From assembly GCF_030068615.1 (NCBI RefSeq), contig NZ_JASJOC010000001.1, forward strand, positions 496,001 through 560,000: a DNA stretch of 64,000 nt. Direction: 5' to 3'. Position 1 is the stretch's first letter; each line of letters begins with the position of its first letter. Of the stretch, positions 19,431 to 37,134 are shown in pieces. The stretch comes from Halostagnicola sp. A-GB9-2. Its GTDB lineage: Archaea > Halobacteriota > Halobacteria > Halobacteriales > Natrialbaceae. The notes below the pieces were generated by a model, which made no database searches, was not told the DNA's origin, and saw only the letters and a list, made by a program, of their open reading frames with translations. Position numbers and translations under genes: made by a program.

Positions 19431-21113
19431 ATGGCACGCAATACGGCGGTTCTCGTTCTCGGCGGCGGCTCGACCGGCTGTGGAATCGCCAGGGATCTGG
19501 CTCGACGCGGCCTCGAGGTAACCCTCGTCGAGCGAGGAAATCTGACTGGCGGAACGACCGGTCGAATGCACGGACTCCTACATAGCGGGGGCCGGTACGC
19601 GGTTTCGGATCAAGCGAGTGCGACGGAGTGTATCGAGGAAAACGAAATTTTGCGGGATATCGCCGGACACTGCGTCGAGATGACCGATGGACTGTTCGTC
19701 CAACGGCCTGAGGATCCCGACGAGTACTTCCGGAAAAAACTCGACGGATGTCGGGAGTGTAACATTCCCGCGGAAGTCCTCTCGGGCCGAGAAGCCCGAG
19801 AGGTCGAGCCGTATCTCGCGAGCGACGTCAAACGCGCGATCAAAGTCCCGGACGGGGCCGTGGATCCGTTCAGGCTCTGCGTCGCGAACGCGCTCGACGC
19901 CGAAAAGCACGGCGCGCGCATCGAGACCCACGCCGAGGTCGTCGACCTCCTTCGGGAGGGCGACGACATCTACGGCGTCGAAGTGAGACACGACTCGGGA
20001 CCCGGAAAACGGGTTCACAGCTCCGCCGGAACGACCGAGGAGATCACGGCCGACTACGTCGTCAACGCGACCGGCGCGTGGGCTGGCCAGATCGGCGAGA
20101 TGGCGAACCTCGAGGTCGCGGTTCGGCCTTCCAAGGGCGTGATGACGATCATGAACGTGCGGCAGGTCGACACCGTCATCAACCGGTGCCGACCGAAGGG
20201 CGACGCGGACATCGTCGTGCCCCACGAAACGACGGCGATTCTGGGGACGACCGACGAGGAAGTCGACGATCCCGACGACTACCCTGAAGAAAACTGGGAG
20301 GTCGACATGATGATCGATACGCTCTCGGAACTGCTCCCGATCCTCGAGGAATCCCGGACGATCCGCTCGTTCTGGGGCGTTCGACCGCTCTACGAACCGC
20401 CGGGGACCGGGACGCAGGATCCCACCGACATCACGCGGGATTTCTTCCTGCTCGATCACGCCGACAGGGACGGCGTTGCCGGCATGTCGACTATCGTCGG
20501 CGGCAAGTTCACCACCTACCGAGCGATGGCCGAGGAGATTTCGGATCACGTTTGTGATAAACTGGGTGTGCGAGCGACTTGCGATACCGCCGACGCGGCG
20601 CTACCGGGGAGCGAGAACCTCGCGGTGCTCAAGGACGCGATGGACGACTTCGGGCTCCGATCGCCGGTCGCGCGTCGCAGCAAACAGCGACTCGGGAGCA
20701 GATCCGCGGACGTTCTCGAGACGGACGATCCCAACCCGGTGATCTGTAACTGCGAAGGCGTCACGCGGGCTGAGATACAGGATGCGATCAGCCAATCCGG
20801 GTCGGACCTCAACGCCGTTCGGATCCGGACTCGAGCCTCGATGGGGAACTGTCAGGGCGGCTTTTGCTGCCAGCAGATGGCTTGCGAGTTACACCCCGAG
20901 TACGACGAGGAGACGACTCGAGCGGCGTTGGACGAACTCTTTCAGGAGCGGTGGAAGGGCGAACGCCACGCTCTCTGGGGCGAACAGCTCTCGCAGGCGA
21001 TGCTCAACTACTCCCTGCACGCGACGACGATGAACCGCGACGGGGATCCGGCAAGCGCCGACGAGCGGGTAGCCTACGACGCCTTCGACGGCGGGCCAGG
21101 GGGGGATCGCTGA
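19431..21113 (+). CDS. glpA: glycerol-3-phosphate dehydrogenase subunit A (anaerobic type)
   Basis: The 560-residue FAD subunit oxidises glycerol 3-phosphate to dihydroxyacetone phosphate. The FAD Rossmann loop [19 protein letters not shown] is at residues 8-26, followed by [14 protein letters not shown]. Near the C-terminus is a BFD-like [2Fe-2S] domain with cysteines in [11 protein letters not shown] and [10 protein letters not shown]. It begins the glpABC operon; glpB starts one base after its stop codon. In haloarchaea GlpABC passes electrons to the membrane quinone pool. Confidence 0.96.
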
Positions 21114-21114
21114 G

Positions 21115-22485
21115 ATGGCCATCGAAGACGACGTGCTGGTCATCGGCGGCGGCCTGGCGGGCGCGACGGCCGCCCTCTCGGCGGCCGAACGCGACGCGAC
21201 GGTTCGGCTCGTCAGTTACAAGCAGAGCACCCTCCGTCACGCCAGCGGCCTGATCGACGTGCTCGGCTACATGCCGACGGGCGTCGACGAAGTGAACGAC
21301 GGGGATGACGGGGGCGACGGCTCCGGAACGGAGACACCGTTGGTCGATCCGTTCGAGGCCATTCCGTCCCTCCCCGAAGGCCATCCGTACGAACGAGTCG
21401 GCCTCGAGACGGTACGCGAGGCGCTGTTGTTTTTCGATTCGATCGCTGGCGACGCCTATGCCGGCGAGCACACCGACGCGAACGCGCTCGTTCCGACCCA
21501 CGGCGGCACCGTCAAACCGACCGCTCGGTACCCGGCGACGACCGCCGCGGGGATTGCAAGCGATCCTCGAGACGCCCTGTTGGTCGGTTTCGAGACCCTT
21601 CCCGATTTCGACGCCCCGCTGGCTTCGGCCCACCTTCAGGCGGCCGAGGTTCCCTTCGAGAGCCGCGGTATCACGCTCTCGTTCCCGGGAATACGGCGAT
21701 CGGATGCGAAGATTACCCGGTACGCACATATCCTCGAGCGAGACGAGTCGGTCGATACGGGTGCCGGCGACGGACCCGCACGGGCGGCGCTCGCCCACGC
21801 GATCGGAACCGAACTCGAGGACGAATCCCGTGTCGGTCTCCCCGCAGTGTTGGGTGACGAACACGCAGACACCGTTCGCCGGGACCTCGAGGAACGACTC
21901 GGGATCGACGTCTTCGAAGTGCCGATGGGGCCGCCGAGTCTTCCCGGCATTCGACTCGAGGAGCTGTTGTACGACGCGCTCGAGGAGGCGGGGGTTCGGG
22001 TGACGACCGGCGTTCCCGTCGTCGATTACGAGCCCGTCGATGGAGCGAACGGTTCAGATACGATCGAGCGGATCGACCACGTTGTCGTCGACCGAAACGG
22101 ACAGCAGGTCCCCTACAGCGCACAGCAGTACGTTCTCGCGACGGGCGGACTGGTCGGCAAAGGCGTCCGATCCGATCGAGATCGAGTCTTCGAACCGATC
22201 TTCGACTGTCACGTCGCACACAGCGCGGATCGGTACGACTGGTTCGTCGACGACGCCTTCGGCGACCACCCGTTCGCTCAATTCGGGCTTTCGGTCGACC
22301 GAGAGCTCCGACCGCTCGAGGAATCCGATGGGGAGGAGGCCGACGACATCGAGTTCTCGAACCTCCGAGCGGCGGGAGCGATACTGGGCGGGTTCGACGC
22401 CGCCGCGGAGAAATCCGCGAGCGGGGTTTCATTGGCGACCGGCTACGCGGCCGGAAGCCGTGCAGGCCAGGAGGCGAGCGAATGA
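21115..22485 (+). CDS. glpB: glycerol-3-phosphate dehydrogenase subunit B
   Basis: The 456-residue flavoprotein subunit begins with an FAD-binding loop, VIGGGLAGATAALSAAERDA, and contains the GlpB-typical HASGLIDVLGY and FPGIRRSDAK segments and the C-terminal LRAAGAILGGFD. It is immediately downstream of glpA and probably cotranslated. It is thought to link GlpA with the iron-sulfur subunit GlpC. Confidence 0.94.
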   Translation: MAIEDDVLVIGGGLAGATAALSAAERDATVRLVSYKQSTLRHASGLIDVLGYMPTGVDEVNDGDDGGDGSGTETPLVDPFEAIPSLPEGHPYERVGLETVREALLFFDSIAGDAYAGEHTDANALVPTHGGTVKPTARYPATTAAGIASDPRDALLVGFETLPDFDAPLASAHLQAAEVPFESRGITLSFPGIRRSDAKITRYAHILERDESVDTGAGDGPARAALAHAIGTELEDESRVGLPAVLGDEHADTVRRDLEERLGIDVFEVPMGPPSLPGIRLEELLYDALEEAGVRVTTGVPVVDYEPVDGANGSDTIERIDHVVVDRNGQQVPYSAQQYVLATGGLVGKGVRSDRDRVFEPIFDCHVAHSADRYDWFVDDAFGDHPFAQFGLSVDRELRPLEESDGEEADDIEFSNLRAAGAILGGFDAAAEKSASGVSLATGYAAGSRAGQEASE

Positions 22486-22524
22486 TAGCGGTTCGACCGA
22501 CGGACGAAGCGGGCGGGCGATGCG

Positions 22525-22575
22525 GTCGACGGACGGCGAGTGGTCGATATAGTCGACGGACGGCGAGTGGTCGAT
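22525..22575 (+). repeat. two direct 24-bp repeats between glpB and glpC
   Basis: Two identical copies beginning GTCGACGGACGGCGAGTGG occupy 22525-22548 and 22552-22575 (period 27 bp). A third, degenerate copy runs from about 22595 into the glpC start codon. They lie in the 130-bp gap of an otherwise tight operon and do not encode a clear product. Confidence 0.75.
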
Positions 22576-22615
22576 CGATTATGCTGAGGACAAATCGACG
22601 GACGACGGTGATTCG

Positions 22616-24010
22616 ATGAGCGATGCACAACAGCCAACGGACGACGGATCGGGAAGCGAGGAGTTCGAACCGGTACAAGTGTTCCCGGAGGCCGAGGAGA
22701 TGGACCTCCGACCGGGTGCCGACGACTGTTACAAGTGCTCGACCTGCGACACGAACTGCCCCGTCGCCGAGGTCGACGACGAGTTCCCCGGACCGAAGTT
22801 CCAGGGGCCCGAGCAGTGGCGACTCAAGCGCCAGGAGGACCACGACATCGACGAGTCGGTGATGAAGTGTTCGAACTGTATGCGTTGTGATAACGCCTGT
22901 CCGTCCGAAGTACCCCTCTCGCAGATGCATAACACGGCAAGAGGCGAGTACGTCGAGGAGAACATGAGCAAGTTCTCTCGAGAGTACTGGCGGAATCGGT
23001 TGCTTTCGAACTACGGGACGATGGCTCGCATCGGAAGTAAAGTACCCCGCCTCACAAACTTCATGATGGGGTTGACAGTGACACAGGTCATAAACGAGAA
23101 GCTACTGGGGATCACGAGCGAACGGGAGTTTCCGTCGTTCGCGACGGAGACGTTCCGCGAGTGGTGGGAAACGCGAGGCGGACACGAGGCCTCGAGGGAG
23201 AACGCTCGAGACGCCAGGGAGAGACGAGACGACTCGAGCGACGACGAAAGCAAGCGCGTCGCGTACTTCCACGGCTGTTATTCGAACTACAACACGCCCG
23301 AGGTCGGGAAGGCGATGGTTCGGGTATTCGAACACTTCGGCTACGAGGTGCTGGTTCCGGACCAGCGGTGTTCGGGGACGCCGATGTACGCGAACGGGAT
23401 GCTCGACGACGCCGAACGCGCCGCCGAGACGAACGTCGCCGAACTCGCCTCGGCGATCGAAGACGGCGCGGACGTCATCGCCTCCTGTACGTCGTGTTCG
23501 ATGTCGCTCCGCCAGGAGTACCCCGAACTCTTCGATTTCGAGGATACCGAAACGGTCGCTACCCACACCTGGGAAGCCCTCGAGTACCTCCGGATTCACG
23601 AGGATCTCGAGGCCGAACTCGAGACAGCGAGCGTCGATATGTCGAACTTTGCCTATCACGCGCCGTGTCACGCGCGGAATCAGGGCCTCGATGGCCAGAC
23701 CGTCGAGGTCCTCTCGTCGATTGACGGCGTGGAAGCCGAGGACGTCGGCGACTCGTGTTCAGGCATCTCCGGCACCTACGGGTGGAAAGAAGAGAACTAC
23801 GAGACGTCGATGAAGATCGGCGGGGAGATGTTCGAGCACATGGAAGGGGCCGACGCCGAGTCCGGGATGACGGAGTGTCCGACCTGTGCCATGCAGATGG
23901 AACACGGAACCGGCTACGAGATCAAACACCCGCTCGAGGTGCTTTCTGCGGCGCTGGCCGACTCCGAAACGCCGGAGGCAACGAAAGCGAGCGGAGAGGA
24001 AGCGGTGTAA
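22616..24010 (+). CDS. glpC: glycerol-3-phosphate dehydrogenase subunit C, iron-sulfur protein
   Basis: The 464-residue subunit has two [4Fe-4S] ferredoxin motifs: Cys38, 41, 44, 48 and Cys85, 88, 91, 95. Two CCG (heterodisulfide-reductase-like) domains follow, with RCSGTPMYAN and CTSCSMSL in the first, and YHAPCHARNQG with CSGISGTYG in the second. GlpC anchors GlpAB to the membrane and passes electrons to quinone. Its stop codon shares one base with the ATG of the AAA gene. Confidence 0.95.
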   Translation: MSDAQQPTDDGSGSEEFEPVQVFPEAEEMDLRPGADDCYKCSTCDTNCPVAEVDDEFPGPKFQGPEQWRLKRQEDHDIDESVMKCSNCMRCDNACPSEVPLSQMHNTARGEYVEENMSKFSREYWRNRLLSNYGTMARIGSKVPRLTNFMMGLTVTQVINEKLLGITSEREFPSFATETFREWWETRGGHEASRENARDARERRDDSSDDESKRVAYFHGCYSNYNTPEVGKAMVRVFEHFGYEVLVPDQRCSGTPMYANGMLDDAERAAETNVAELASAIEDGADVIASCTSCSMSLRQEYPELFDFEDTETVATHTWEALEYLRIHEDLEAELETASVDMSNFAYHAPCHARNQGLDGQTVEVLSSIDGVEAEDVGDSCSGISGTYGWKEENYETSMKIGGEMFEHMEGADAESGMTECPTCAMQMEHGTGYEIKHPLEVLSAALADSETPEATKASGEEAV

Positions 24011-25158
24011 TGGATCTGCACGAACGAATCGGTCGGCGACAGTCCGCACACAACGGTGGACAGCTCGTCGTCGATCAAGCGTATCTCAGCCCCGCCGTCC
24101 ACTCGTCCGAACCCGTCGGTCGAGGCTCCGTCCTCGAGCGCTGTCTGGACGTTCTCGAGCCGGTGTTCGACGGCGAGTTACCGCCACCGTTCGCAGTCGT
24201 CGGGCCGGCGGGGTCGGGGACCTCCGCGGTTGTTACGGCGTTGTTCGCGGAGCTGAACGACACCTTCGGGGACTCCGACCGGGTGATCGGAACGTCGACG
24301 CGAATGGAACGAACCGGACCGACGACGTGGTTCCTCTACATCGATGGCCGCCGGGTCAAGACGCCGTTCGCGTTCTACCGCGAAGCCCTTTCGACGATCA
24401 CCGACGAGGCGGTTCCCGAAAGCGGGATCGGAACCGACGAGCTTCGGGAACGATTTGTGGCCAAACTCGAGCGACCCAACCACCGCGCGGTGGTCGCGAT
24501 CGATCACCACAACGAACCTGAAACTCTCGAGTACGAGCGCGTTCTCGAATTGCTCGAGCCAGTCAGCGATCACGTCGGAACCGCCGTTGTCGGCACGCGC
24601 GAACCCGACGAATGGCACGGATCGACGATAACGGCCCCGGCGTACCGCCAGCACGAACTCGTCGATATCGTCGCCGATCGGGCATCGACCGGCCTCGCCG
24701 CCGGTGCACTGGACCACGATTCCATCCGCGACATCGCCGACTGGGCTGACGGAAGCGCTCACGACGCGCTCACAACACTGTACGTCGCAGCGGTCCTCGC
24801 AAACGACGATGATGCGACACAGATTCGCAATGAACACCTTGAGACGGCGATGGCAGACGTGCCGACGGACGGGATCCATATTGATCGAACGCTGACGTTA
24901 TCGGAAAACCGCCAACAGGTTCTTCTAGATTTATTATCCGTTTCAGCCGAGTCGGAGCCGATCCGCGAGGTCGCACGCAAGATCGAATCGGAGTCATCAG
25001 TGACTGCGAGTACCGTCACTCGATTTCTGTACGAACTCGCGGATCGCGGGGTTCTCGAGCGCGTTGGACTGCCGTCGACGGGCTCCGGACGTCGCCCGAG
25101 TACGGTCGAACCGCGATTTTCACCGATCGCGTTTCGGTCGCTCGTCGCGGTGCGGTAA
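24010..25158 (+). CDS. ORC/CDC6-like AAA protein with degenerate Walker motifs and C-terminal winged helix
   Basis: The 382-residue protein has the layout of an Orc1/Cdc6-type ATPase: a P-loop region at residues 65-72, a strand with VVAIDHH at 161-167, a lid, and a winged helix at about 305-375 (ARKIESESSVTASTVTRFLYEL). But the P-loop reads GPAGSGTS, with Thr71 in place of the essential lysine, and Walker B has His in place of Glu, so ATP hydrolysis is doubtful. It is coupled to glpC by a one-base overlap. It may be a DNA-binding regulator, but that is inference. Confidence 0.72.
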   Translation: MDLHERIGRRQSAHNGGQLVVDQAYLSPAVHSSEPVGRGSVLERCLDVLEPVFDGELPPPFAVVGPAGSGTSAVVTALFAELNDTFGDSDRVIGTSTRMERTGPTTWFLYIDGRRVKTPFAFYREALSTITDEAVPESGIGTDELRERFVAKLERPNHRAVVAIDHHNEPETLEYERVLELLEPVSDHVGTAVVGTREPDEWHGSTITAPAYRQHELVDIVADRASTGLAAGALDHDSIRDIADWADGSAHDALTTLYVAAVLANDDDATQIRNEHLETAMADVPTDGIHIDRTLTLSENRQQVLLDLLSVSAESEPIREVARKIESESSVTASTVTRFLYELADRGVLERVGLPSTGSGRRPSTVEPRFSPIAFRSLVAVR

Positions 25159-25220: not shown

Positions 25221-27302
25221 ATGAGTATTGAATTCAAAGACACGACAGAACCAACCGGGCTCGAAGTATATGATTCGATCGAGCAACGGCGTTTACAAAT
25301 TAAGACCTCCAAACCTATTTTTCCGACGCCGGTGCCGACGGAAAACTTCCATTTTCCCGTGGATAAATCCTGTACGTTCGAAACGACCGAACTCGTTTTC
25401 GATCAACTCTATTCTGTCACAATTCACAACGAAACGGGTCGAGCAGTACAAAATTTAGATGCGGGTGATTCGATTAGTTTCGATGACGGAACGCAGTTTG
25501 TCGGCCTCAGTGGGCCTATTCGGTTGTACGTGCAACTCGATTGCCCGGCTATGATACAAGTGGGGATGAAGTCGATTCGAATATCGCTCGGTACCGAAAC
25601 GACTGTCGGACTCGGTATGAGATCGCTTCACGAACACCCCGCCGAGACGATCACGACTCCCCGCGAGATAGAACCGATGATGAAAGCGGTCTCGGCGTTT
25701 CCTTCGGCGCTAAAAACGACGAGTCCGGAACGGGCGTGGCCGACGCTCCGGGGGCATCCTCCGCTCGTCGAACTCGGAGACGAACTGCAGATTCCGGACG
25801 CGATCGACCAACCGGATAACGACATTCGGATAACGATCCCGCCGGACTACCGGAACCTGTTTTACGCCGCCCCGCTCGCGTTTTATCTCGGAGCGACCGT
25901 TCAGCCAGGGTCCGAGCCAACACTCGAAACAGCTGAGTTCGACTATTCACTCGGGTCAGAGTGTGAGTTAGAAGATGAGTTCGCTCGACTACTGAAACAG
26001 ATCTTCTTCCTCGACTGCTTGACCCGAACTGAAGGTATTTTCGGGAACAAACTTCACGAACGAACGACGCTGGAGGGTGAGATTCCGTTCGACCTCGCCG
26101 AGACGTACTCGCTATCACTGTCCGAACAGCTCGAACGGTATCTCGACATCCCGTATGGTTGGATCGAACAACATATCCCTCGCTGGCCGCTGACCGCCCA
26201 CCTTCCGTCCACTCCTTCGAACGTCGAACTGCTTCCGTTTATCGTCAACGAGCTCGGAATCATCCGCGAAACTCGAGGGAATTCGAGACAGCAGGTGGCT
26301 CGACAGGATCCAACAAACGCCCAATTCGTCCGCTCGGCGAGTGAGTACAGGACCGAAAATCCCGATCTACCGTCGAACGGTTCACCGTTCGTCACACCGA
26401 GCGTCACGGAAGAATCCATCGAACACGCGTGGTTCGGTGACGATATCCCGCTCAGTGCGTCGAAAGCGTCGATCGAAGCCTATCGAAGCCAATTATCCCG
26501 CGGTTCGCTCCGCGAATCGATCGAGATATTGCTCGTCTGTAACGACGCACGGATGACGGACGAACACGATTTTCTGGACCAAACCTACGGAAATCGCGAA
26601 ACGCTTCCGTTCGACATCGACTCCGAGTTCGGCGTCAGTACGGATCGTCTCGCAGAACTGCTGACTGACGGCGGCTACGATTTCGTCCACTATATTGGCC
26701 ACGCCACCGAAGACGGTATCAAGTGCCTGGATGGGGATCTCGACGTGAGAACGCTCGAGTCAGTTGATGTCGGGGTTTTCTTCCTGAACGCCTGTCGCTC
26801 GTACGAACAGGGACTTGCACTCACTCAACGTGGGGCACACGGAGGCGTGAGTACGTACAACGACGTCATAAACGAGTACGCCGTCGAAACCGGCGAAATG
26901 ATGGCCCGATTGCTCAACCGTGGCTTTTCGCTCCGAGGCGCGCTCGAGATTACGCGAGAGAACTCAACGCTCGGTGACGAGTATCTCATCGTCGGCGACG
27001 GTTCCGTGGATATCGCCCAAACTGAGGGGGGAGCTCCGTCGATCATCTCCCTCGAGGAGCACGACGATTCCGAGTTCGGGTTCGCACTGCAGTCGTATTC
27101 GACGAAGGAATTTAAACTCGGTTCGGTGACGGCATCTGCACTCGAAGCTGTCGACGATTTGCACCTAAGTCCTGGACAGCCACCGGCCTCGAGGGTTGAA
27201 AAACAGCCGTTAGAAGAGTACCTCACCTGGACGGAACTGCCCGTTCTAATCGACGGCGACTTGCGGTGGAACGACGGTATCGGACCGCTCCCGATTAACT
27301 AA
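25221..27302 (+). CDS. CHAT / caspase-like domain protein
   Basis: The 693-residue protein ends in a caspase-fold CHAT-like domain (about 430-640) with the His of YDFVHYIGHATEDG (His494, alternative His490) and the Cys of FFLNACRSYEQG (Cys525), the expected catalytic pair. About 430 residues precede it: a beta-rich part to about 140, then a charged helical part, neither recognised. A short A/T-rich sequence before the ATG and lower GC in the first third suggest a different history. It lies 62 bp after the AAA gene on the same strand. Proteolysis of an unknown target is the inferred role. Confidence 0.78.
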   Translation: MSIEFKDTTEPTGLEVYDSIEQRRLQIKTSKPIFPTPVPTENFHFPVDKSCTFETTELVFDQLYSVTIHNETGRAVQNLDAGDSISFDDGTQFVGLSGPIRLYVQLDCPAMIQVGMKSIRISLGTETTVGLGMRSLHEHPAETITTPREIEPMMKAVSAFPSALKTTSPERAWPTLRGHPPLVELGDELQIPDAIDQPDNDIRITIPPDYRNLFYAAPLAFYLGATVQPGSEPTLETAEFDYSLGSECELEDEFARLLKQIFFLDCLTRTEGIFGNKLHERTTLEGEIPFDLAETYSLSLSEQLERYLDIPYGWIEQHIPRWPLTAHLPSTPSNVELLPFIVNELGIIRETRGNSRQQVARQDPTNAQFVRSASEYRTENPDLPSNGSPFVTPSVTEESIEHAWFGDDIPLSASKASIEAYRSQLSRGSLRESIEILLVCNDARMTDEHDFLDQTYGNRETLPFDIDSEFGVSTDRLAELLTDGGYDFVHYIGHATEDGIKCLDGDLDVRTLESVDVGVFFLNACRSYEQGLALTQRGAHGGVSTYNDVINEYAVETGEMMARLLNRGFSLRGALEITRENSTLGDEYLIVGDGSVDIAQTEGGAPSIISLEEHDDSEFGFALQSYSTKEFKLGSVTASALEAVDDLHLSPGQPPASRVEKQPLEEYLTWTELPVLIDGDLRWNDGIGPLPIN

Positions 27303-27825: not shown

Positions 27826-28752
27826 CTAATACTCGAGATCGTCGGTGTTCCGGTCGACGATCAGTACCGCGAATCCACCGATTACCGCGGCGAGCACGGC
27901 GGCGGTCGGCGACCCAGCAGTCGTCTCGTTGAGATTCCCCCGCACCTCCTCAAGTGGCAGTCGAAGCGCCCCGACCATCAAACTGACGAGAAAGACGAGC
28001 GTCGCGGCCCGGTACCGGTCGAGGGCATGGCGAACGAGATGAGCCATCGAAAACAACCCGATCACGGCACCGACGCCGAAGACGGCGACGATACCGCCCG
28101 CATCGATGATCGGAGTGAGCGATTCGCCGTTGACGAGTCCGAGTACGCCGTCGACGAACGTACTCAACACGCCGGTCATGTACTCGTACTGACCGAGTAT
28201 GAGGAGGAAAAAGGCACCCGACACGCCGGGCAACACCATCGCACAGATCGCGACGGCACCGGCGAGAAAGACCATCGGCAGGCCGTGAGAGGCGTTAGTA
28301 CCGGTGACTCCGGTAATGGCGAGTGCGAGAAGGATCGCGACTGCCGCTACACCGAAGCGTTTGGGCGTCCACGTCTCGATATTATCGTATAACACGACAG
28401 CCGACGCGGCGATCAAGCCGAAGAAAAAGCCGTACGTCGGTACTGGCAGCGAGTTCACCGCGTAATTCATCAGTCGAGACAGGGCCACGATCGCCGTTGA
28501 GACACCGAGTCCGAGCGCCAGCAAAAACAGCGCATCCGTTCGTTCGACCAACTCGAGCAACGCTTCGCGCCCCTCCGGAGTGTGAACCCGGACCGCTGGG
28601 CCGAACTCCCGTGGATCGATCGCCGTGATCGCATGGATCATCCGATCGTAGATGCCGACGATCAGCGCGATCGTCGCGCCCGAAACCCCCGGGACGACAT
28701 CGGCCGCACCCATCGAGAACCCCTTACAGTAGACCAGGAGAAATTCACGCAT
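27826..28752 (-). CDS. DUF368 membrane protein, probable polyprenyl/dolichyl-phosphate transporter (PopT family)
   Basis: The 308-residue protein has eight or more hydrophobic helices and the two pseudo-repeated signatures of DUF368: VVPGVSGATIAL (residues 19-30) and VLPGVSGAFFLL (173-184). In bacteria DUF368 proteins were shown to bring undecaprenyl phosphate back across the membrane. The gene lies 89 bp downstream of aglB on the same strand, so recycling of the dolichyl phosphate released by AglB is an attractive, untested role. Confidence 0.85.
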   Translation of the reverse strand: MREFLLVYCKGFSMGAADVVPGVSGATIALIVGIYDRMIHAITAIDPREFGPAVRVHTPEGREALLELVERTDALFLLALGLGVSTAIVALSRLMNYAVNSLPVPTYGFFFGLIAASAVVLYDNIETWTPKRFGVAAVAILLALAITGVTGTNASHGLPMVFLAGAVAICAMVLPGVSGAFFLLILGQYEYMTGVLSTFVDGVLGLVNGESLTPIIDAGGIVAVFGVGAVIGLFSMAHLVRHALDRYRAATLVFLVSLMVGALRLPLEEVRGNLNETTAGSPTAAVLAAVIGGFAVLIVDRNTDDLEY

Positions 28753-28841
28753 CGCTCGAGGGTATTCTGGGTGTCGGGAAAAGCGTTCTCACTTGCCAGG
28801 GACGTGTCAGAATCGAAATGTACCCACGAAACTACTTCGGG

Positions 28842-31800
28842 TTATTCCGCGTCGGCCGCAGTCTCGTCTTCTTCGTCATCTTCTTCGGTTTCGTCCTCGC
28901 CGTCAGCTTCAGTTTCGTCTTCATCACCGTCGTCCGCTGTTTCGTCTTCAGCGTCATCGTCTGCTTCTTCGTCGTCATCCGCTTGTTCGCCCTCGTCAGC
29001 CGCTTCGCCGTCATCCGCTTGCTCGCCGTCTTCCACGTCGTCAGCCGGATCGCCTTCCTCGTCGTCTTCGGCCGGTTCGAGCTCGATGCCGTCAACCTCT
29101 TCTCCGTTGACCACCGCGGTCTCGGAGACTTCGACTTCGCCGTAGTACTGGTGGACGTAGTCCAGGCCGCCTTCGGTGGACGTCACGGTGAGGTTGTAGT
29201 CCTCGATCGCCTCGACGCTACTCTCGGTGTAGCCGTCGTCGACGTCGAGTTCTTCTTCGGTCGCATACGGTACCGTCAGCTCGAAGCTTCCGTCATCTTC
29301 GATATCGGCTTCCTGCGCGTAGCCGACCGTGCGTTCACCTTCGGTCTCGAGCTCGAGCGTCGCCGTGATCATCGCGCTGTCGTCGCCAGCGAGCTCGTCG
29401 TCGTCGATGTTTCCGGTGATCGTCGCGCCGTCGACGCGCTCGAAGGTTTTGACGCCGGAACCGACCTGCCCGCCGAAGGTCTCGACGTCGTACGGAGACT
29501 GCCGTTGGATCTGATTGAGTTCGTTGTTGAGCGCCTGGGTATACTCCAGGTTGACGCCCATCTGTGGCTGGCCGTCATCCATGAGGACTTCGTCGCCGTC
29601 CATGATGGCGTAACTGATGAAGGTGGTCGTCTGGATGTTGTTCTCGTGGACGAGCCGGTAGTTCTCCATCCCGTGGGCGTCGTCGAAGTACAGCTGTGAG
29701 AGCATCGTCTGGCCGTAGAGCGTCTCGTCGACGAAGTCGTCGTCCTCGAGGTCCTCGGCGGTGATCGTCTCGCCCTCCTCGTAGTCCGCCGGGAGCGAGT
29801 ACGCCTGCCGGTCGGGGCCGGTCCACTGCGTGATCGCACCGAACTTGCCGCCGGCCATCGAGCCGTCGATCATCACGTAGCGCATCTCTTCGTTGCCCTC
29901 GTCGACTTCCTCGAGAGCGGCCTCGAGTTCCTCGTCGGAGACGTCTTCCCAGTCGACGTCCGCGTCATCCCTGATCGCGTCGAGGATCATCTCGCCGCGT
30001 TCTTCCGAGTCGGCGGTAAGGTACGCCGAGGAAGATCGAGCGTTTTGCTGGAACGGGTTCGAGTGTGGAATCCGCTCGGATTGGGTCGTTATCAGGTGGC
30101 CGTAGTCCCACCACGACATGACCCCGTAGGCGCCCTCGGGGTACTGATAGTCACCGCCGTCCGGATAGTCGTAGTTGCCGAAATAGTCGAGTTCGCTGGC
30201 GTTGTCCGCACCGCCGTAGTTACCCGGTTCGGGTGTGTTTTCTGCGAGCCACTCGTTCGACGGCTGCCAGATCATCGAATCGGAGTGTGGCGACGGACCG
30301 GGGTTGTCTTCCTCTGGATCGGATGCGGTGAGGGTCCAGACGCCCCCGCCGACGGCAAGCGGGATCGACGCGAAGACGACCAACACGACCATCCCGATAA
30401 CGATTATCTGGTAGGTTTCGATCTGTCTGGCGCTCTCGAGACCGGCCTCGAGATCGAGGTTGATAATCCGTCCGATGTCCGCGATGAACACCGCGTTGAG
30501 CACGGCCACCGCGAGGACGAGGTAGTAGGAGAATCGAACCTGCGTCGCGGCCATACTCGTCAGGAATATTGCCCAGATGATCACGAGCGTGTATTCGGCG
30601 CGGAACTCGCGATCGAAGTACGGTCTCGCAATGAGGAACGCGATGCCGAGCAACATCGTGTAGAATGCCGCTCCGAACTCATTGAAGACGTGCGTCGAGA
30701 GGAAGTCATCCGGTCGCTGCGCTTCCTGGATCGTCGCATCAGTGTCGACGCCCCCGAACGGGAACAGCCGCCGAGCGAGATTGTCGTAGATCGTATCGAA
30801 GAGTTCCGGCAGCGCCAGCGCCATGGTGAGGAACGCGACCAGAATCAACCCGCCGATCGCCGCCGGGTAATACATCCGGTCGATATCTCGGTTGTTCCAC
30901 TGTCGTGCTAACCAGGCCATGAACACACAGCCGACCCCGACTAACAGTGCGGCGGTCGGTTGGACGTAGCCGAAACTCGTCGCGCTCGAGCTCCACTCTT
31001 CGATGAGCAGTGCCGTAATGAGCGCAGTGACGCCCATGCTCACGGCACCGACGAAGGCGACGTGGTCGGGTGAAACACCCCGAACGTAATCGAGACAGAG
31101 TTGAACGGTGAAGAAAATCGCGAGAATACCGACGAGGACGACGCCCGGTGGCCAAACCCAAATGTACAGCGCCAGCGCGAGTCCCGCGAGGGCACTGTAG
31201 ATTGTCGGCGCTTTGAGCGTCCCCCAGTCCTTGTCAAGCAGGAGTTCGTAGATCGGTTGCTCTCGTTCGCTGGCCCGAAGCGCAACCATCATCGCCAGCA
31301 CGGCAATCGCCATGAACAACACTTCGGCGACGTGGTGTTGTAGTTGGCCGACCGTGGTCCGGCTGAGGAACTGGCCGGGGACGAGCGCGAGAATAACGAT
31401 CGAGACGATACCGCCGAACGTCCCGCCGAGCCGTCGGCCCATGAAGAACACGGGGATCGCGACGAGCGCGGCCATCACGGGAACGGACAGTATGGCGACG
31501 GTAAAGAGCGTCTCAGAAGAGGGATCACCCAGGCCGACGATCATCGCCGCCGTGACGATAAGCTGATCGAACAGGGTGCCGAACTGGCCGACGTATCGTC
31601 CGGACGGAAACCCGGTAAACACGTCGAATGGCATCGTATACGGATAGTTCTCTGATGTCCACTCGATCGTCCGCCAGTGATAATACGAGTCGATACCTCC
31701 GAGCATCGGCGTGCCGTCTTCGTACGTGAAGTTATTCTGGGGCCGGACCCGGACCCAGTACATAAATAGCATCACAATCCCGATAACGGGAAGATGATAC

Positions 31801-31868
31801 CACTGCTTCAACGTCTCGAGGAAGGAAGACTCCGTTTCCTCTCCGACGTGTTCGGTGTCGGTACTCAT
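28842..31868 (-). CDS. aglB: dolichyl-phosphooligosaccharide-protein glycotransferase AglB
   Basis: The 1008-residue STT3-family enzyme transfers a lipid-linked glycan to asparagine of exported proteins. The N-terminal half holds about a dozen helices, the metal-binding Asp60 in GGIDSYYHW and the TIxE-type motif TIQE near 379-382. The soluble domain has the hallmark WWDYG at 586-590. The last 80 or so residues are a low-complexity Asp/Glu tail with repeated ADD/DEE units. It is divergent from aglG. All expected catalytic marks are present. Confidence 0.97.
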   Translation of the reverse strand: MSTDTEHVGEETESSFLETLKQWYHLPVIGIVMLFMYWVRVRPQNNFTYEDGTPMLGGIDSYYHWRTIEWTSENYPYTMPFDVFTGFPSGRYVGQFGTLFDQLIVTAAMIVGLGDPSSETLFTVAILSVPVMAALVAIPVFFMGRRLGGTFGGIVSIVILALVPGQFLSRTTVGQLQHHVAEVLFMAIAVLAMMVALRASEREQPIYELLLDKDWGTLKAPTIYSALAGLALALYIWVWPPGVVLVGILAIFFTVQLCLDYVRGVSPDHVAFVGAVSMGVTALITALLIEEWSSSATSFGYVQPTAALLVGVGCVFMAWLARQWNNRDIDRMYYPAAIGGLILVAFLTMALALPELFDTIYDNLARRLFPFGGVDTDATIQEAQRPDDFLSTHVFNEFGAAFYTMLLGIAFLIARPYFDREFRAEYTLVIIWAIFLTSMAATQVRFSYYLVLAVAVLNAVFIADIGRIINLDLEAGLESARQIETYQIIVIGMVVLVVFASIPLAVGGGVWTLTASDPEEDNPGPSPHSDSMIWQPSNEWLAENTPEPGNYGGADNASELDYFGNYDYPDGGDYQYPEGAYGVMSWWDYGHLITTQSERIPHSNPFQQNARSSSAYLTADSEERGEMILDAIRDDADVDWEDVSDEELEAALEEVDEGNEEMRYVMIDGSMAGGKFGAITQWTGPDRQAYSLPADYEEGETITAEDLEDDDFVDETLYGQTMLSQLYFDDAHGMENYRLVHENNIQTTTFISYAIMDGDEVLMDDGQPQMGVNLEYTQALNNELNQIQRQSPYDVETFGGQVGSGVKTFERVDGATITGNIDDDELAGDDSAMITATLELETEGERTVGYAQEADIEDDGSFELTVPYATEEELDVDDGYTESSVEAIEDYNLTVTSTEGGLDYVHQYYGEVEVSETAVVNGEEVDGIELEPAEDDEEGDPADDVEDGEQADDGEAADEGEQADDDEEADDDAEDETADDGDEDETEADGEDETEEDDEEDETAADAE
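28848..29085 (-). repeat. acidic low-complexity repeat encoding the AglB tail
   Basis: The 3' end of aglB is a run of GA[CA] and GAG/GCC codons encoding about 80 residues of Asp, Glu, Ala and Gly. The purine/pyrimidine asymmetry is strong. The tail likely keeps the external domain soluble in high salt; no specific function is shown. Confidence 0.7.
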
Positions 31869-32065
31869 TCACTTGGAACTGTCCCAAGCCAAGAATAAGC
31901 TTTGTCATCTCCTCGTCGCCTCAACTATCGGATTATTCGATATATGGAGGGCTATCTCCGGTGAATGCGCGATCTTATCAGTTGAACGGCAAATCATGCA
32001 ATCAGTACGGTACGTGTCGTATCTCCGTTTCGGCAGAGCCGACACTCACGACAGCCGAACAAAAA

Positions 32066-32075
32066 GGCTTATTCG
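32066..32075 (+). promoter_or_regulatory. TATA-like box of aglG
   Basis: GGCTTATTCG lies about 28 nt upstream of the ATG at 32099. The spacing fits a leaderless transcript and supports that start over the longer reading frame that begins at 31961. Confidence 0.55.
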
Positions 32076-32098
32076 CCGTTCACCGTAACCGACCGTCG

Positions 32099-33040
32099 AT
32101 GAAGGTCTCCGTCGTCATTTGCACGTACGCGATGGAGCGCTACGACGTCTTTTCCGAATGCGTCGATAGCGTCCTCGCACAAACGTACGACCCCCTCGAG
32201 ACCGTGATCGTCGTCGACGGAAACGAGGACGTCTTCGAGCGCGTCGAAAACGACTACGGGGAACACGAGGGCGTTACCCTGCACTGTAACGACGAGAACA
32301 AGGGCATCTCCTACAGCCGGACGAAAGGTGCCGAACTCGCCGACGGCGAGGTCGTCGCGTTCATCGACGACGACGCCGTCGCCGAACCCGACTGGATCGA
32401 CGAACTCGCTCGAGTCTACGAGGAGACCGACGCGAACGCCGTCGGCGGCCACGTCGCGGCCGACTGGGTGACCGAAAAGCCCGATTTCTTCCCCGCGGAG
32501 TTCTACTGGCTCGTCGGCTGTGACGAACGTGGGATGGGCGAGCACATGGAGGAACTGCGAAACACCTACGGCTCGAACATCTCCTACCGACGAGACGTGT
32601 TCTTGAACGTCGGCGGCTACGATCAGAACACCGGCCGCAAAGGTGACAGGCATATCCAGGCCCACGAAGCTCCAGTCTGCATCCGAATCGCGAACAAGTA
32701 CGGAACCGGCGTGATCTACAATACGGACGCCGTCGTCCACCACAAGCTCTTTGAGTACCGCGGGGAGTTTCGCTGGCTCGTCTTCCGCTCGTTCTGGCAG
32801 GGCTACTCGAAGCGGATCATGGACCTGCTCCTTCCCGAGGCGTCGGGCGATAAAAACGACTACCTGAAACAGCTCATGATCGGGTTCGTGCCGGCACGAC
32901 TCAAGAGCCTCCTCGCCGGCCCATCGCTTCCGAAGGTCAAACAGCTTGTCGCGATTTTCGTCTTCACCGCGGCCGTCGGCTTTGGCTACCTGTATGGACT
33001 CTCGAAATCGAACTCGTCGCTGATCGGCGAGGAGTCCTGA
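32099..33040 (+). CDS. aglG: GT2 glycosyltransferase AglG-like (hexuronosyltransferase of N-glycosylation)
   Basis: The 313-residue enzyme starts MKVSVVICTYAMERYDVFSE, has the metal-binding DDD (90-92, FIDDDAVAEPDW) and ends with a hydrophobic helix (about 275-300). The core, including NTYGSNISYRRDVFLNVGGYD and GRKGDRHIQAHEAP, closely follows Haloferax AglG, which adds the second sugar, a glucuronic acid, to the dolichyl-phosphate-linked glycan. The exact sugar here is inferred. It lies 6 bp upstream of a GT4 gene on the same strand and divergent from aglB. Confidence 0.87.
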   Translation: MKVSVVICTYAMERYDVFSECVDSVLAQTYDPLETVIVVDGNEDVFERVENDYGEHEGVTLHCNDENKGISYSRTKGAELADGEVVAFIDDDAVAEPDWIDELARVYEETDANAVGGHVAADWVTEKPDFFPAEFYWLVGCDERGMGEHMEELRNTYGSNISYRRDVFLNVGGYDQNTGRKGDRHIQAHEAPVCIRIANKYGTGVIYNTDAVVHHKLFEYRGEFRWLVFRSFWQGYSKRIMDLLLPEASGDKNDYLKQLMIGFVPARLKSLLAGPSLPKVKQLVAIFVFTAAVGFGYLYGLSKSNSSLIGEES

Positions 33041-33046
33041 TCGACG

Positions 33047-33994
33047 ATGCCCTCAAATCGTCCGCTTCGAGTCCTCCACCTGACGACCTCTCGGGAGGTG
33101 TTTTTCGACCAGCAGATCGAGACCCTCGAGGCCAAGGGCGTCGACACGACGGTGGTCGTGGTTCCGGGCGAAGACCAGATCGACGGCGACATGGGAAGTG
33201 GCCGCGGTGCATGGGAGTACCTCGAGTACTTCCCGCGCGTGCGACGAGCGCTCCGGGACGGCGACTTCGACGTAATTCACGCGAACTACGGGCTCACCGC
33301 CCCCTACGCGATCACCCAGCTATCGCTTCCCGTCGTCCTCACGCTGTGGGGATCCGACGTCATCGGCTTCGACGGGTACGTATCGAAAGCCTGCGCTTGG
33401 CGCTGTGACGCGATCACCGTTCGAAGCGAGGAGATGCGCGAACTGCTGGGCCGGGACGCACATATCCTCCCGAGCGGCATCGACCTCGAGCGCTTCGAGC
33501 CGATGGACCATGCCGAGGCCCGCGAGCGAGTCGGCTGGGAGCCGAACAAAAAACACGTTCTCTTCCCTTACTCGCCCGACTACGAGCGCAAGAACTATCC
33601 CCTGGCCGAGCGCGTCGTCGAGGACGCTCGAGCGCGCCTCGAAGACGATATCGAACTCCAGACCATTTCCGGGGTCGACCACGAGGAGGTCCCCGTCTAC
33701 ATGAACGCCGCCGATGCGTTGTTGCTCACCTCGAAACACGAAGGCTCACCGAACACGGTCAAGGAGGCGATGGCCTGCGATCTGCCGGTCGTCTCGACCA
33801 CCGTTGGCGACGTGCGCACGCGACTCGCCGATGTCTCGCCCTCGGGCGTCGGCAAAACTCAGGACGAACTGGTCGATCACCTCGTCTCGGTTCTCGAGAC
33901 GGAAACCCGTTCGAACGGTCGCGAAGAAGTTCGGGAAGTCAGCTGGGATCGGATCGGGGACCGGATTCTCGGAATTTACGCGGACGTTTGCTGA
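33047..33994 (+). CDS. GT4-family glycosyltransferase
   Basis: The 315-residue GT-B enzyme begins RVLHLTTSREVFFDQQIETL, has an N-domain ending near LTLWGSDVIGFDG, the acceptor-side LPSGIDLERFEPMD, and the donor-binding E-x7-E segment in TSKHEGSPNTVKEAMACDLPVV. It probably adds one sugar of the surface glycan from a nucleotide donor, on the cytoplasmic side. It is in an operon with aglG (6 bp apart). Donor and linkage are unknown. Confidence 0.88.
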   Translation: MPSNRPLRVLHLTTSREVFFDQQIETLEAKGVDTTVVVVPGEDQIDGDMGSGRGAWEYLEYFPRVRRALRDGDFDVIHANYGLTAPYAITQLSLPVVLTLWGSDVIGFDGYVSKACAWRCDAITVRSEEMRELLGRDAHILPSGIDLERFEPMDHAEARERVGWEPNKKHVLFPYSPDYERKNYPLAERVVEDARARLEDDIELQTISGVDHEEVPVYMNAADALLLTSKHEGSPNTVKEAMACDLPVVSTTVGDVRTRLADVSPSGVGKTQDELVDHLVSVLETETRSNGREEVREVSWDRIGDRILGIYADVC

Positions 33995-34081: not shown

Positions 34082-35527
34082 TTATCGACCCGTAACGCGC
34101 GGAATTTCGATCGGGGCGTTGTTTCGAACGACATCACGGAAGTGAGGTGACATCGCGAAGAGGACGACGACGTACACTACGGCACCGCCTGCGACGATCG
34201 CCGCGGTGACAGCCGTTGACTCGAGGCTTTCCGAGGGTGGGCTGACGAACGTCGTAACAGGATAGACGACAGCGCCCATCGCGATGGCTGCGACCCACTG
34301 GCGAGCGATTTCGACCAGTGGCAGTTCGAACTCGAGGTGGTGACCAAGCGCATAGAACGCGCCGATGAGTCCCAGCCCAGCCGATAGCGCCGTTCCGATC
34401 GCAGCACCGGTCCAACCGATAGCGGCGACGAGACCGACGTTTGCGACGACGTTCGAGACGATGAACAGACCGTTGACGCGAAACGCGATGTCCGGCCGAT
34501 CGAGCCCGTTGAGCGTATTGAGCAACTGATCGAAGTACGAGTACAGTAACGAACCCAACAGCAAGATCGGGAGGACGTACTGGCCCTCGACGAACTCCGT
34601 GCCGTAGATCGCCAGCACACGGTCACCGACGAGTATCCCGCCGATAATTCCCGGAATGAGGACGAACCCCGCGAACGCGAGGGCCTCCGTCGTCAGGCTC
34701 GCAACGTGACGGTGCTCGCCGTCCGTATCGTGCTTACTGATCTCGGGGAACATCGCGGTACTGATTGCGGATCCGAAAATCAGGAAGAACGAACACAGCG
34801 CCCAGACGATGGAGTACACGCCGACGAGCGCGCTCGAGACGAGCGCCCCCAAGACGAGAATGTCGACTTCGCTGAACGTTTTGCCCTGTACTCGCCCAAT
34901 CCACGCGTACTTCGCGAAGTCGACGAGTCGTTTGTAGTGGCGACGCGTGGGCCGCTCGAACGGCGGTGTGAGCACGATAGCGGCGACGAATGCGGACATC
35001 ATCCAGCCCGTCGAGTAGCCGATGAGCATCCCAGTAAGTTCCAGTCCGGCGAGGACGAGCGCGACCTGGACGAGCGCCCGACCACCGATTTTCAGGGGCT
35101 TGAGAACAGCATAGATGTGCACCTTGTGCTGGCCCTGCAAGGCTGCGTTGAACAGGGAGTTACACAGAACCGCGACCAACATGAGGATCACGATGAGGTG
35201 GACGTCCTCGCCGACGTAGGCGTTCAATTGATCCTGGAAGACGAGCACGCCGATCGCGAGAACGACGAATATCGACCCGATGATCGATGCGCCCGCCCAG
35301 AAGTACGCATACGAATCGGTCTCCTCGCTCATGCGCTTGGTGATCGCACTCGAGAGGCCTATCTTGCCGCCGATACCGAGCCAGGTGACGACAGCCAGCG
35401 CGATGGAGTAGTAGCCAAGAACTTCTGCACCGAGGACGCGAGCGAAATAAATCGTCGCGACGAAACCGATCGCCGAGGCGGCGATCTCGGTAACGAACTG
35501 GAGGAACGACGTTTGACCGATTCTCAT
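34082..35527 (-). CDS. MOP-superfamily polysaccharide flippase (AglR/Wzx type)
   Basis: The 481-residue protein has 12 to 14 hydrophobic helices and the usual flippase start RIGQTSFLQFVTEIAASAIGFVATIYFARVLGAEVLGYY. In Haloferax AglR, a member of this family, is involved in moving charged dolichyl phosphate across the membrane. The location among glycosyltransferases and aglB fits that role. The ATG at 35527 is preferred; the 41 upstream codons are Arg-rich and not membrane-protein-like. Confidence 0.87.
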   Translation of the reverse strand: MRIGQTSFLQFVTEIAASAIGFVATIYFARVLGAEVLGYYSIALAVVTWLGIGGKIGLSSAITKRMSEETDSYAYFWAGASIIGSIFVVLAIGVLVFQDQLNAYVGEDVHLIVILMLVAVLCNSLFNAALQGQHKVHIYAVLKPLKIGGRALVQVALVLAGLELTGMLIGYSTGWMMSAFVAAIVLTPPFERPTRRHYKRLVDFAKYAWIGRVQGKTFSEVDILVLGALVSSALVGVYSIVWALCSFFLIFGSAISTAMFPEISKHDTDGEHRHVASLTTEALAFAGFVLIPGIIGGILVGDRVLAIYGTEFVEGQYVLPILLLGSLLYSYFDQLLNTLNGLDRPDIAFRVNGLFIVSNVVANVGLVAAIGWTGAAIGTALSAGLGLIGAFYALGHHLEFELPLVEIARQWVAAIAMGAVVYPVTTFVSPPSESLESTAVTAAIVAGGAVVYVVVLFAMSPHFRDVVRNNAPIEIPRVTGR

Positions 35528-35718
35528 AGTTGCGTCGAGGTGGCGTCGACGGCCACCCGTCTGTCCGCGTCTTTCGGTGCCACGGCTATCAGTCTGATCA
35601 TGTGTACGAAAAGCCCTTATGGAACGACTCGAGCGGCTGGGACAACTCAAGGGGCAGACATCGAGCGGCGGCTACTCTCGACTATAATCCGTTCTGTGTC
35701 GCCGTCGGCTCGCGGCGA

Positions 35719-36984
35719 TCACAGGAGCGCTTCGACCGAATCGGTTATCGCCGCGACGTCGACCCGCAAATCGTCCCCGACAGACTCACAGAGGTGATAC
35801 TCGTACTCAAGGCCGAGCGCGGCGGCGAGCATCCAGTAGGTCGGTTTGATCTTGGAGCCGAACAGTTCGACTACCGCACAATCGTTCGCGAACACGGAGT
35901 TGGCAAGGCCGGCCCCGTGCGGAGCAATAACGATATCCGCTTCGAGAAAGAGTCGGACTTGCTCGGCGAACGAGAGCGACGAGAGCGTGTAGCGTTCGAA
36001 CCCGCGGTTCGCGAGTGAATCGAGGAGTTCGTCTCGGTTGCGGACCCGTCGCCGGTCGGCATCCGCACGCGAGATGTACACCCGTCGACCGCGGCCCGCA
36101 GGGCGGGTCTCGATTTCGGAGCTGGTGTCGGAACGCTGCGAGGAAGTCGTTTCTCGAGCGGCGGACCGGAGCCACCGGCAGGCAGCCGGCGACGTGAGCT
36201 TGTACGACAGATCGTACGTGAACCGGTGGGCGTAGGTCGACCGGGGCTGCTCGAGAGAGCGAACCGAGGGCACGAGCAATCCTTCAATCGTCGTCGGCTC
36301 CCCGGTCCACGTTTCGACGCGTTCAGGTCCGTACCCGAAAAACGCGAGCGACTCGAGAACCCAACTCGACGCGTTATCCGGAACGAGAATCGTCGCGCGC
36401 TCGCCAGTCTGTTCTTCCCACCGCCGGAGTCCCTCGAGTCGCGGGAGTGCGGTCAACGTCCAGTGGGAGTAGCCGCCGAGACAGCCGTCGACGAGCGAGC
36501 ACACCGTCTGCAGACGACGCTCCCCCTCGCTCGGAGTCCCGAGCGATGATTGATCCCACAGCGCCCGCCTGAGCAGGGACGGGTCCGCCAACAGCGACTG
36601 CTCGAGTGTGTCGCGCCGACTGAGCGACGTCTCGAGGAGCAACGAGCCGTCCGGCCGAACGGATAAGGAGTCCCGCCCGATGAGTCGAGCCTTCGGCAGT
36701 CGGCAGACGAACGGTTGCCCGAGCGAAAACGAACCGGCCATCCGCTCGAGTTCCGAGGGTGCACTCGACGGAGCGTCGAGCGTGATTGACTCCTCGGAGC
36801 CGAACGCGAACACGTCGGCACCCGGCGTTCGAGCGAGCTCCGCGCGCCTGAGGTAGCTAATTCTGGTATCCAGTGCGAGTTTGCCCGCGAACAGCCTCGG
36901 CGCGGCCCCGGTTTCAATCCCGCGTTTGAGCAATTCGAGGACTCCGACGTCGCGAACTTTCTGTCGAACTCGTCGGAGCGGCAT
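35719..36984 (-). CDS. GT61-family (DUF563) glycosyltransferase
   Basis: The 421-residue protein has the GT61 C-terminal motif series: VYISRADADRRRVRNRDELL, then FAEQVRLFLEADIVIAPHGAGLANSVFA, and VVELFGSKIKPTYWMLAAALG. Before that, GGYSHWTLTALPRL and LVPDNASSWVLESLAFFGYG match the family. GT61 includes xylosyl- and GlcNAc-transferases; the donor here is unknown. The ATG at 36984 has a TATA-like CTTATC about 26 nt upstream, better than the GTG at 37077. Confidence 0.84.
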   Translation of the reverse strand: MPLRRVRQKVRDVGVLELLKRGIETGAAPRLFAGKLALDTRISYLRRAELARTPGADVFAFGSEESITLDAPSSAPSELERMAGSFSLGQPFVCRLPKARLIGRDSLSVRPDGSLLLETSLSRRDTLEQSLLADPSLLRRALWDQSSLGTPSEGERRLQTVCSLVDGCLGGYSHWTLTALPRLEGLRRWEEQTGERATILVPDNASSWVLESLAFFGYGPERVETWTGEPTTIEGLLVPSVRSLEQPRSTYAHRFTYDLSYKLTSPAACRWLRSAARETTSSQRSDTSSEIETRPAGRGRRVYISRADADRRRVRNRDELLDSLANRGFERYTLSSLSFAEQVRLFLEADIVIAPHGAGLANSVFANDCAVVELFGSKIKPTYWMLAAALGLEYEYHLCESVGDDLRVDVAAITDSVEALL

Positions 36985-37134
36985 ATGAATCGTTCCAAAA
37001 GCAGCGGATAAGTCGCTGACGGTTCGAGCCGGAATAGCTAACGGCTCAGATCGGAACCGTTGCCGGATCGGAGTCACTGCCGGTCCGACTCTAAATCACG
37101 GATTATTTAGTCGATCTCTCCGTACCCCAGATCA

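Follow-up and report, generated by a model that had tools for sequence, protein, structure and literature searches.

The aglB–DUF368 locus

The stretch of DNA analyzed here, referred to as the window (64,000 nucleotides of Halostagnicola sp. A-GB9-2; GCF_030068615.1, contig NZ_JASJOC010000001.1, positions 496,001–560,000), carries the gene of the archaeal oligosaccharyltransferase AglB and, directly behind it, the gene of a DUF368 membrane protein, which is to date the strongest candidate for the step that returns the spent lipid carrier of N-glycosylation into the cell. A sequence-only reading of the window had placed the DUF368 gene on the strand of aglB, 89 base pairs (bp) downstream of it, and both genes were located exactly so. 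The features of the pair, in the order of transcription, are as follows.

28842–31868, minus strand: aglB, archaeal oligosaccharyltransferase gene, 1008 amino acids (TIGR04154, archaeo_STT3)
28753–28841, minus strand: gap between the aglB stop and the DUF368 start, 89 bp, read from the sequence
28779–28792, minus strand: promoter-like element GTGAGAACGCTTTT, with CTTTT 31 bases ahead of the DUF368 ATG
27826–28752, minus strand: DUF368 membrane protein gene (PF04018, VCA0040/PopT family), 308 amino acids, candidate inward carrier of dolichyl phosphate

The AglB protein scored 821.1 bits against TIGR04154 (cut-off 450), covering positions 2–831 of the 831-position profile, and contains STT3, AglB_core-like, and AglB_L1 domains; its translation holds the WWDYG catalytic motif as MSWWDYGHLITT. 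The DUF368 protein scored 223.8 bits against PF04018 (cut-off 26; profile positions 1–226 of 246). This was the sole Pfam family in the protein, the VTT domain of the DedA/UptA family (PF09335) not being found, and the gene is the only one of its family in the 4.68-Mb genome.

Linkage of DUF368 to aglB across the Halobacteria

Both families were located in 145 genomes of Halobacteria, each at least 90% complete, and the distances between them were computed. DUF368 was present in 144 of these genomes and AglB scored above its cut-off in 144, so that one genome lacked DUF368 and one had no AglB above the cut-off. Among the matches listed, 95 of the 145 genomes had the DUF368 gene less than 1 kb downstream of aglB and sharing its strand, a set that spans 9 of the 10 families and 39 of the 58 genera; in 5 further genomes the gene was less than 10 kb downstream, and none lay upstream of aglB or on the opposite strand at close range. 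The remaining genomes had the gene far away on the same contig (22) or on another contig (18), and for 3 genomes its place was not among the matches listed. DedA proteins, the other family of polyprenyl-phosphate carriers, were used as a control; they were present in all 145 genomes, and none of their 150 listed places was beside aglB.

Neighbors were then counted at one locus per genus for 50 genera, with two mixed genera entered as non-adjacent and with genes called by a simple script, so that small errors in the counts are possible. The commonest neighbor of aglB was DUF368, immediately downstream in 29 of 50 genera, the next downstream neighbor reaching 3 of 50. An AglG-like gene, a known pathway partner, stood immediately upstream in 23 of 50. 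Around the pair the gene content turns over, but aglB and DUF368 stay together, and the adjacency is far beyond chance. The sequence-only reading had proposed this survey of haloarchaea and had named a random distribution of DUF368 relative to aglB as the outcome that would speak against a tie; no such distribution was found in the 145 genomes or in the 50-genus count.

The only genome without DUF368 (G021, locus L093; 1.9 Mb in 120 contigs) has AglB and two DedA genes, and the absence could reflect either loss in assembly or a true natural absence.

Gene boundaries within the pair

For 67 distinct adjacent pairs, the distance from the aglB stop to the DUF368 start was determined using start codons chosen by script with the aid of alignments, rather than by experiment. 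The gap was 0 bp or less in 15 of 67 pairs and 10 bp or less in 29, with a median of 38 bp. Overlaps of the types ATGA, TAATG, and TGATG were seen in four families (f2, f3, f4, and f8), and because the aglB stop abuts or overlaps the DUF368 start in these lineages, translation of DUF368 is probably coupled there to that of aglB.

In Natrialbaceae, the family of the window, the gaps are wider (63–187 bp). All 19 Natrialbaceae DUF368 genes, two of which no longer adjoin aglB, carry the element GTGAGAACGCTTTT or a similar one, with CTTTT 30–32 bases ahead of the ATG. A slightly wider form of the pattern was matched by 5 of the 50 other DUF368 genes that adjoin aglB and by 2 of the 35 that do not; among shuffles the rate was 1.35%. 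The element is specific to Natrialbaceae. The position and form of the element are those of the B recognition element (BRE)/TATA box of a leaderless haloarchaeal transcript. The window DUF368 gene thus probably has a promoter of its own, as judged from this conservation, and since that promoter would lie in the gap, co-transcription of the pair cannot be assumed. One shared transcript for the window pair was considered, but given the conserved element it is not taken as certain; read-through from aglB is possible.

A second DUF368 type and the aglM neighbors

In a tree of 118 DUF368 proteins, all halobacterial copies fell into one clade (support 97/99), and the aglB-adjacent copies were spread throughout it. 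Nested within was a clade of 19 proteins (99/98) from Natrialbaceae and Haloarcula-like genera, a second DUF368 type that never lies beside aglB. Its branching from within the Haloferacaceae-like portion of the tree points to acquisition by transfer. Some genomes have both types, and in many Natrialbaceae and Haloarcula-like genera the second type replaces the linked copy. In several genomes with the second type only, aglB retains its other old neighbors, for example the 694-amino acid gene and the AAA gene that relatives have next after DUF368, so that the linked copy was lost cleanly. Loci of the second type (L071, L078, L092, L118, L127, L131–L134, L141, L143, L146, L151, and L154) have an M20 peptidase as the DUF368 neighbor in Haloarcula-like genera and a MutS-like gene in some Natrialbaceae.

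A different arrangement was seen in Haloferax, Halobellus, Halogeometricum, and Haloquadratum, where the gene next to DUF368 encodes a UDP-glucose dehydrogenase. For Haloferax, Halobellus, and Halogeometricum this neighbor was confirmed as AglM, scoring about 750 bits against the equivalog model NF041297 (cut-off 670). In such genomes aglB lies one or two genes further on in some cases and has moved away in others. AglM is the UDP-glucose dehydrogenase of the agl pathway, supplying UDP-glucuronate for the same glycan (PMC5867893), and the published H. volcanii agl cluster spans aglJ to aglM (PMC3871713); by analogy with these relatives, the H. volcanii DUF368 gene would be just past the aglM end of the cluster.

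DUF368 outside the Halobacteria

The search was extended to 247 genomes of the phylum, about 200 of them non-halobacterial. DUF368 was present in 34 of the latter, where its neighbors are mostly housekeeping genes. The closest distance to an STT3-type gene was 12–15 kb, in four genomes of one family, and as far as tested the tight aglB–DUF368 linkage is a halobacterial trait. At two loci of one family of the phylum (L058 and L063, family f28), DUF368 lies near a uracil/xanthine permease gene and a CAAX-protease-like (PF02517) gene, with STT3 12–15 kb off. A place for the methanogen gene among N-glycosylation genes was considered and rejected, the neighbors being sugar epimerase, phosphoglycerate-mutase-like, Orc1/Cdc6, MCH, and Por genes.

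These distributions bear on the idea that DUF368 is a general dolichyl-phosphate carrier serving all pathways that release the lipid (AglS mannose transfer, the low-salt glycan, and exopolysaccharide), with its place behind aglB being mainly old gene order. The near-universal presence of the family in the class whether beside aglB or not, the working of the second type from elsewhere in the genome, and the methanogens that have DUF368 without linkage to aglB would all suit such a carrier. We nevertheless regard it as unlikely, because the pair is kept while its flanks turn over, start–stop overlaps occur in four families, and DUF368 stays beside aglM in Haloferax-type genomes, the last of which also supports a role in returning the lipid that AglB releases.

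Family membership, motifs, and predicted fold

Sit et al. (2022, PMC9876793) showed that undecaprenyl phosphate is moved in bacteria by proteins of both the DUF368 and the DedA family; they also noted the enrichment of DUF368 in Halobacteria and obtained partial complementation of a V. cholerae VCA0040 mutant with the DUF368 protein of H. volcanii. The sequence-only reading had held that a return transporter for this lipid in archaea had not been clearly assigned, which is to be qualified, as the function of the archaeal family was partly addressed by that complementation. What is new here is the link to AglB; the family and a partial archaeal role were already known.

Against the VCA0040 equivalog of Vibrio cholerae (NF052564), the window protein scored 204.7 bits, and against the PopT equivalog of the Staphylococcus aureus type (NF052563) it scored 110.3 bits. 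The curated cut-off is 400 bits in both cases, and a Vibrio campbellii protein used for reference gave 504.6 bits in the NF052564 test. The window protein is therefore a member of the DUF368 family but is not classed as an equivalog by either model, and it is more distant from the PopT type than from the VCA0040 type. It is 34–39% identical over most of its length to relatives from Vibrio, Salinivibrio, and Photobacterium, and archaeal members are 33–39% identical to DUF368 proteins of Salinivibrio, Vibrio, and Parabacteroides. The PGVSG and LPGxSG motifs are invariant and common to archaeal and bacterial proteins, as are residues G11, M14, G15, P21–G25, M172, L174–G176, S178, and G179. The two PG[IV]SG motifs proved to be one element that occurs once in each half of the chain (profiles of the halves compared: probability 98, E = 3e-13), a sign of an internal duplication of the kind common among transporters.

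An AlphaFold2 model built from 20 sequences (predicted local distance difference test (pLDDT) 80, predicted template modeling score (pTM) 0.72) has helices interrupted at both PG[IV]SG sites; a single-sequence prediction was discarded (pLDDT 42). Searching with the model using Foldseek gave no convincing fold relative (E at least 0.019), and nothing was found in BFVD. The ZIP transporter BbZIP was considered as a fold relative (VIA Z 9.4, 171 residues, 4.2 Å), but the match was unconvincing because common helical arrangements also give a Z of this size. A sequence search of the PDB found no solved relative, and the viral contigs searched held no relative either.

It might be supposed from these data that haloarchaeal DUF368 has changed its substrate to another lipid or an ion, and that linkage reflects only shared control of cell-envelope genes. 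The scores well under the transporter equivalog cut-offs and the failure of the fold searches to return a relative with a known substrate would fit such a change, but the bacterial family's motifs are kept without change and a haloarchaeal member is at least partly functional in V. cholerae (PMC9876793), making this explanation highly improbable.

Proposed role in return of dolichyl phosphate

In Haloferax, AglB takes its glycan from dolichyl monophosphate (PMC3871713), so that transfer leaves dolichyl phosphate rather than pyrophosphate outside. As bare dolichyl phosphate is the type of substrate that DUF368 proteins take, no prior phosphatase would be required. AglB would transfer the glycan from dolichyl monophosphate to asparagine at the outer face, leaving the bare lipid phosphate; the DUF368 protein, with its two related halves, would carry the phosphate head group back inside, for the lipid to be reloaded at the cytoplasmic face by AglJ/AglG-type transferases. 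The tandem arrangement would match return of the carrier to its release, with expression start–stop coupled in many families and, in Natrialbaceae, served by a separate promoter-like element.

Family membership, class-wide gene linkage, start–stop coupling, and the presence of another DUF368 in genomes that have lost the linked one are observed, and we put the probability that the DUF368 protein carries inward the dolichyl phosphate left by AglB at roughly three in four. A more specific version is put forward tentatively, at somewhat less than even odds: the pair would be a carrier cycle of two genes, conserved in Halobacteria, in which the oligosaccharyltransferase and a return transporter dedicated to the dolichyl phosphate it releases are held at a fixed ratio by start–stop coupling and perhaps act as one complex.

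Several points weigh against inward carriage. The window protein falls short of both equivalog cut-offs, and its gene probably has its own promoter. About one-third of haloarchaeal genomes have DUF368 apart from aglB, and the order of the pair may in part have come down from the common ancestor of the class. In none of the 34 non-halobacterial genomes with DUF368 did an STT3-type gene lie closer to it than 10 kb. The presence of DedA in every halobacterial genome means that DUF368 need not be the sole return carrier, and DedA proteins may share the task. Finally, we infer the substrate, the direction of transport, and the dependence on AglB in the cell. The proposal in the sequence-only reading that this protein is a direct candidate is thus strengthened as regards its tie to the lipid released by AglB, the linkage being non-random, and qualified by the third of haloarchaea that keep the gene elsewhere, many with the second type.

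Compared with known systems, the window protein shares with VCA0040 its Pfam family, both PG[IV]SG motifs, and its identity to Vibrionaceae relatives; it differs in its score, in the tie of the haloarchaeal gene to aglB, and in its substrate, which would be dolichyl and not undecaprenyl phosphate. H. volcanii HVO_RS12060, the protein that gave the partial complementation (PMC9876793), is likewise a haloarchaeal DUF368 protein whose Haloferax relatives adjoin aglM, but in the Haloferax-type loci examined aglM stands between DUF368 and aglB. UptA/DedA proteins have the same proposed job of polyprenyl phosphate return but belong to a different sequence family, and in the same genomes they are not placed beside aglB.

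Published accounts leave the DUF368 gene out of the agl pathway, drawing the cluster from aglJ to aglM (PMC3871713, PMC5867893). No report of aglB–DUF368 linkage was found in the literature searched, most subscription journals being outside its coverage; a literature search for HVO_1532 gave no result, and no assignment of the return step for spent dolichyl phosphate was found in the archaeal N-glycosylation literature searched. The class-wide, often start–stop coupled pair names a candidate for this missing step, turning a family-level guess into a specific assignment that can be tested in Haloferax volcanii, a genetically tractable host. The exceptions offer natural tests, in that lineages without the linked gene carry the second type and the family is missing altogether from one of the 145 genomes. 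If the two-gene carrier cycle is correct, DUF368 would become the first transporter to be assigned to dolichyl-phosphate return in an archaeal N-glycosylation pathway.

Surrounding genes in the window

The surroundings of aglB in the window are an N-glycosylation cluster, which comprises the following genes in addition to the pair.

31961–33040, plus strand: AglG-type glucosyl-dolichyl phosphate glucuronosyltransferase, divergent from aglB (NF041394, 523.8 bits, cut-off 440)
33047–33994, plus strand: GT4-type glycosyltransferase of the same cluster (PF13692/PF13439)
34082–35650, minus strand: Wzx/MurJ-type flippase, candidate exporter of the loaded lipid (PF01943, 69.5 bits; PF03023, 36.5 bits)
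35719–37077, minus strand: GT61-type glycosyltransferase of the same cluster (PF04577, 84 bits)

The flippase gene bears on the direction of transport. Co-location with AglB is compatible with either direction, and a review of the Haloferax pathway names no flippase for the loaded tetrasaccharide lipid (PMC3871713), so that DUF368 could be pictured as an outward flippase supplying AglB with glycan-loaded dolichyl phosphate. The cluster already holds a Wzx/MurJ-type flippase, however, and the bacterial relatives of DUF368 act on bare polyprenyl phosphate, the H. volcanii protein partly complementing a mutant in just this function (PMC9876793); we give outward transport very little weight, and inward carriage of the bare lipid is preferred.

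Beyond the DUF368 gene, a 693-amino acid protein (25221–27302, plus strand) matched no Pfam or NCBIfam family and contains HYIGHATEDG and FLNACRS, in our reading of the sequence a His/Cys pair resembling that of CHAT/caspase-like proteases. Relatives of this protein adjoin aglB/DUF368 in about 12 Natrialbaceae loci. An Orc1/Cdc6-like AAA ATPase gene (23755–25158, plus strand) adjoins a group of genes that we read as glpABC-like (19431–24010, plus strand); in several families this block comes next after DUF368, and it marks the ancestral locus.

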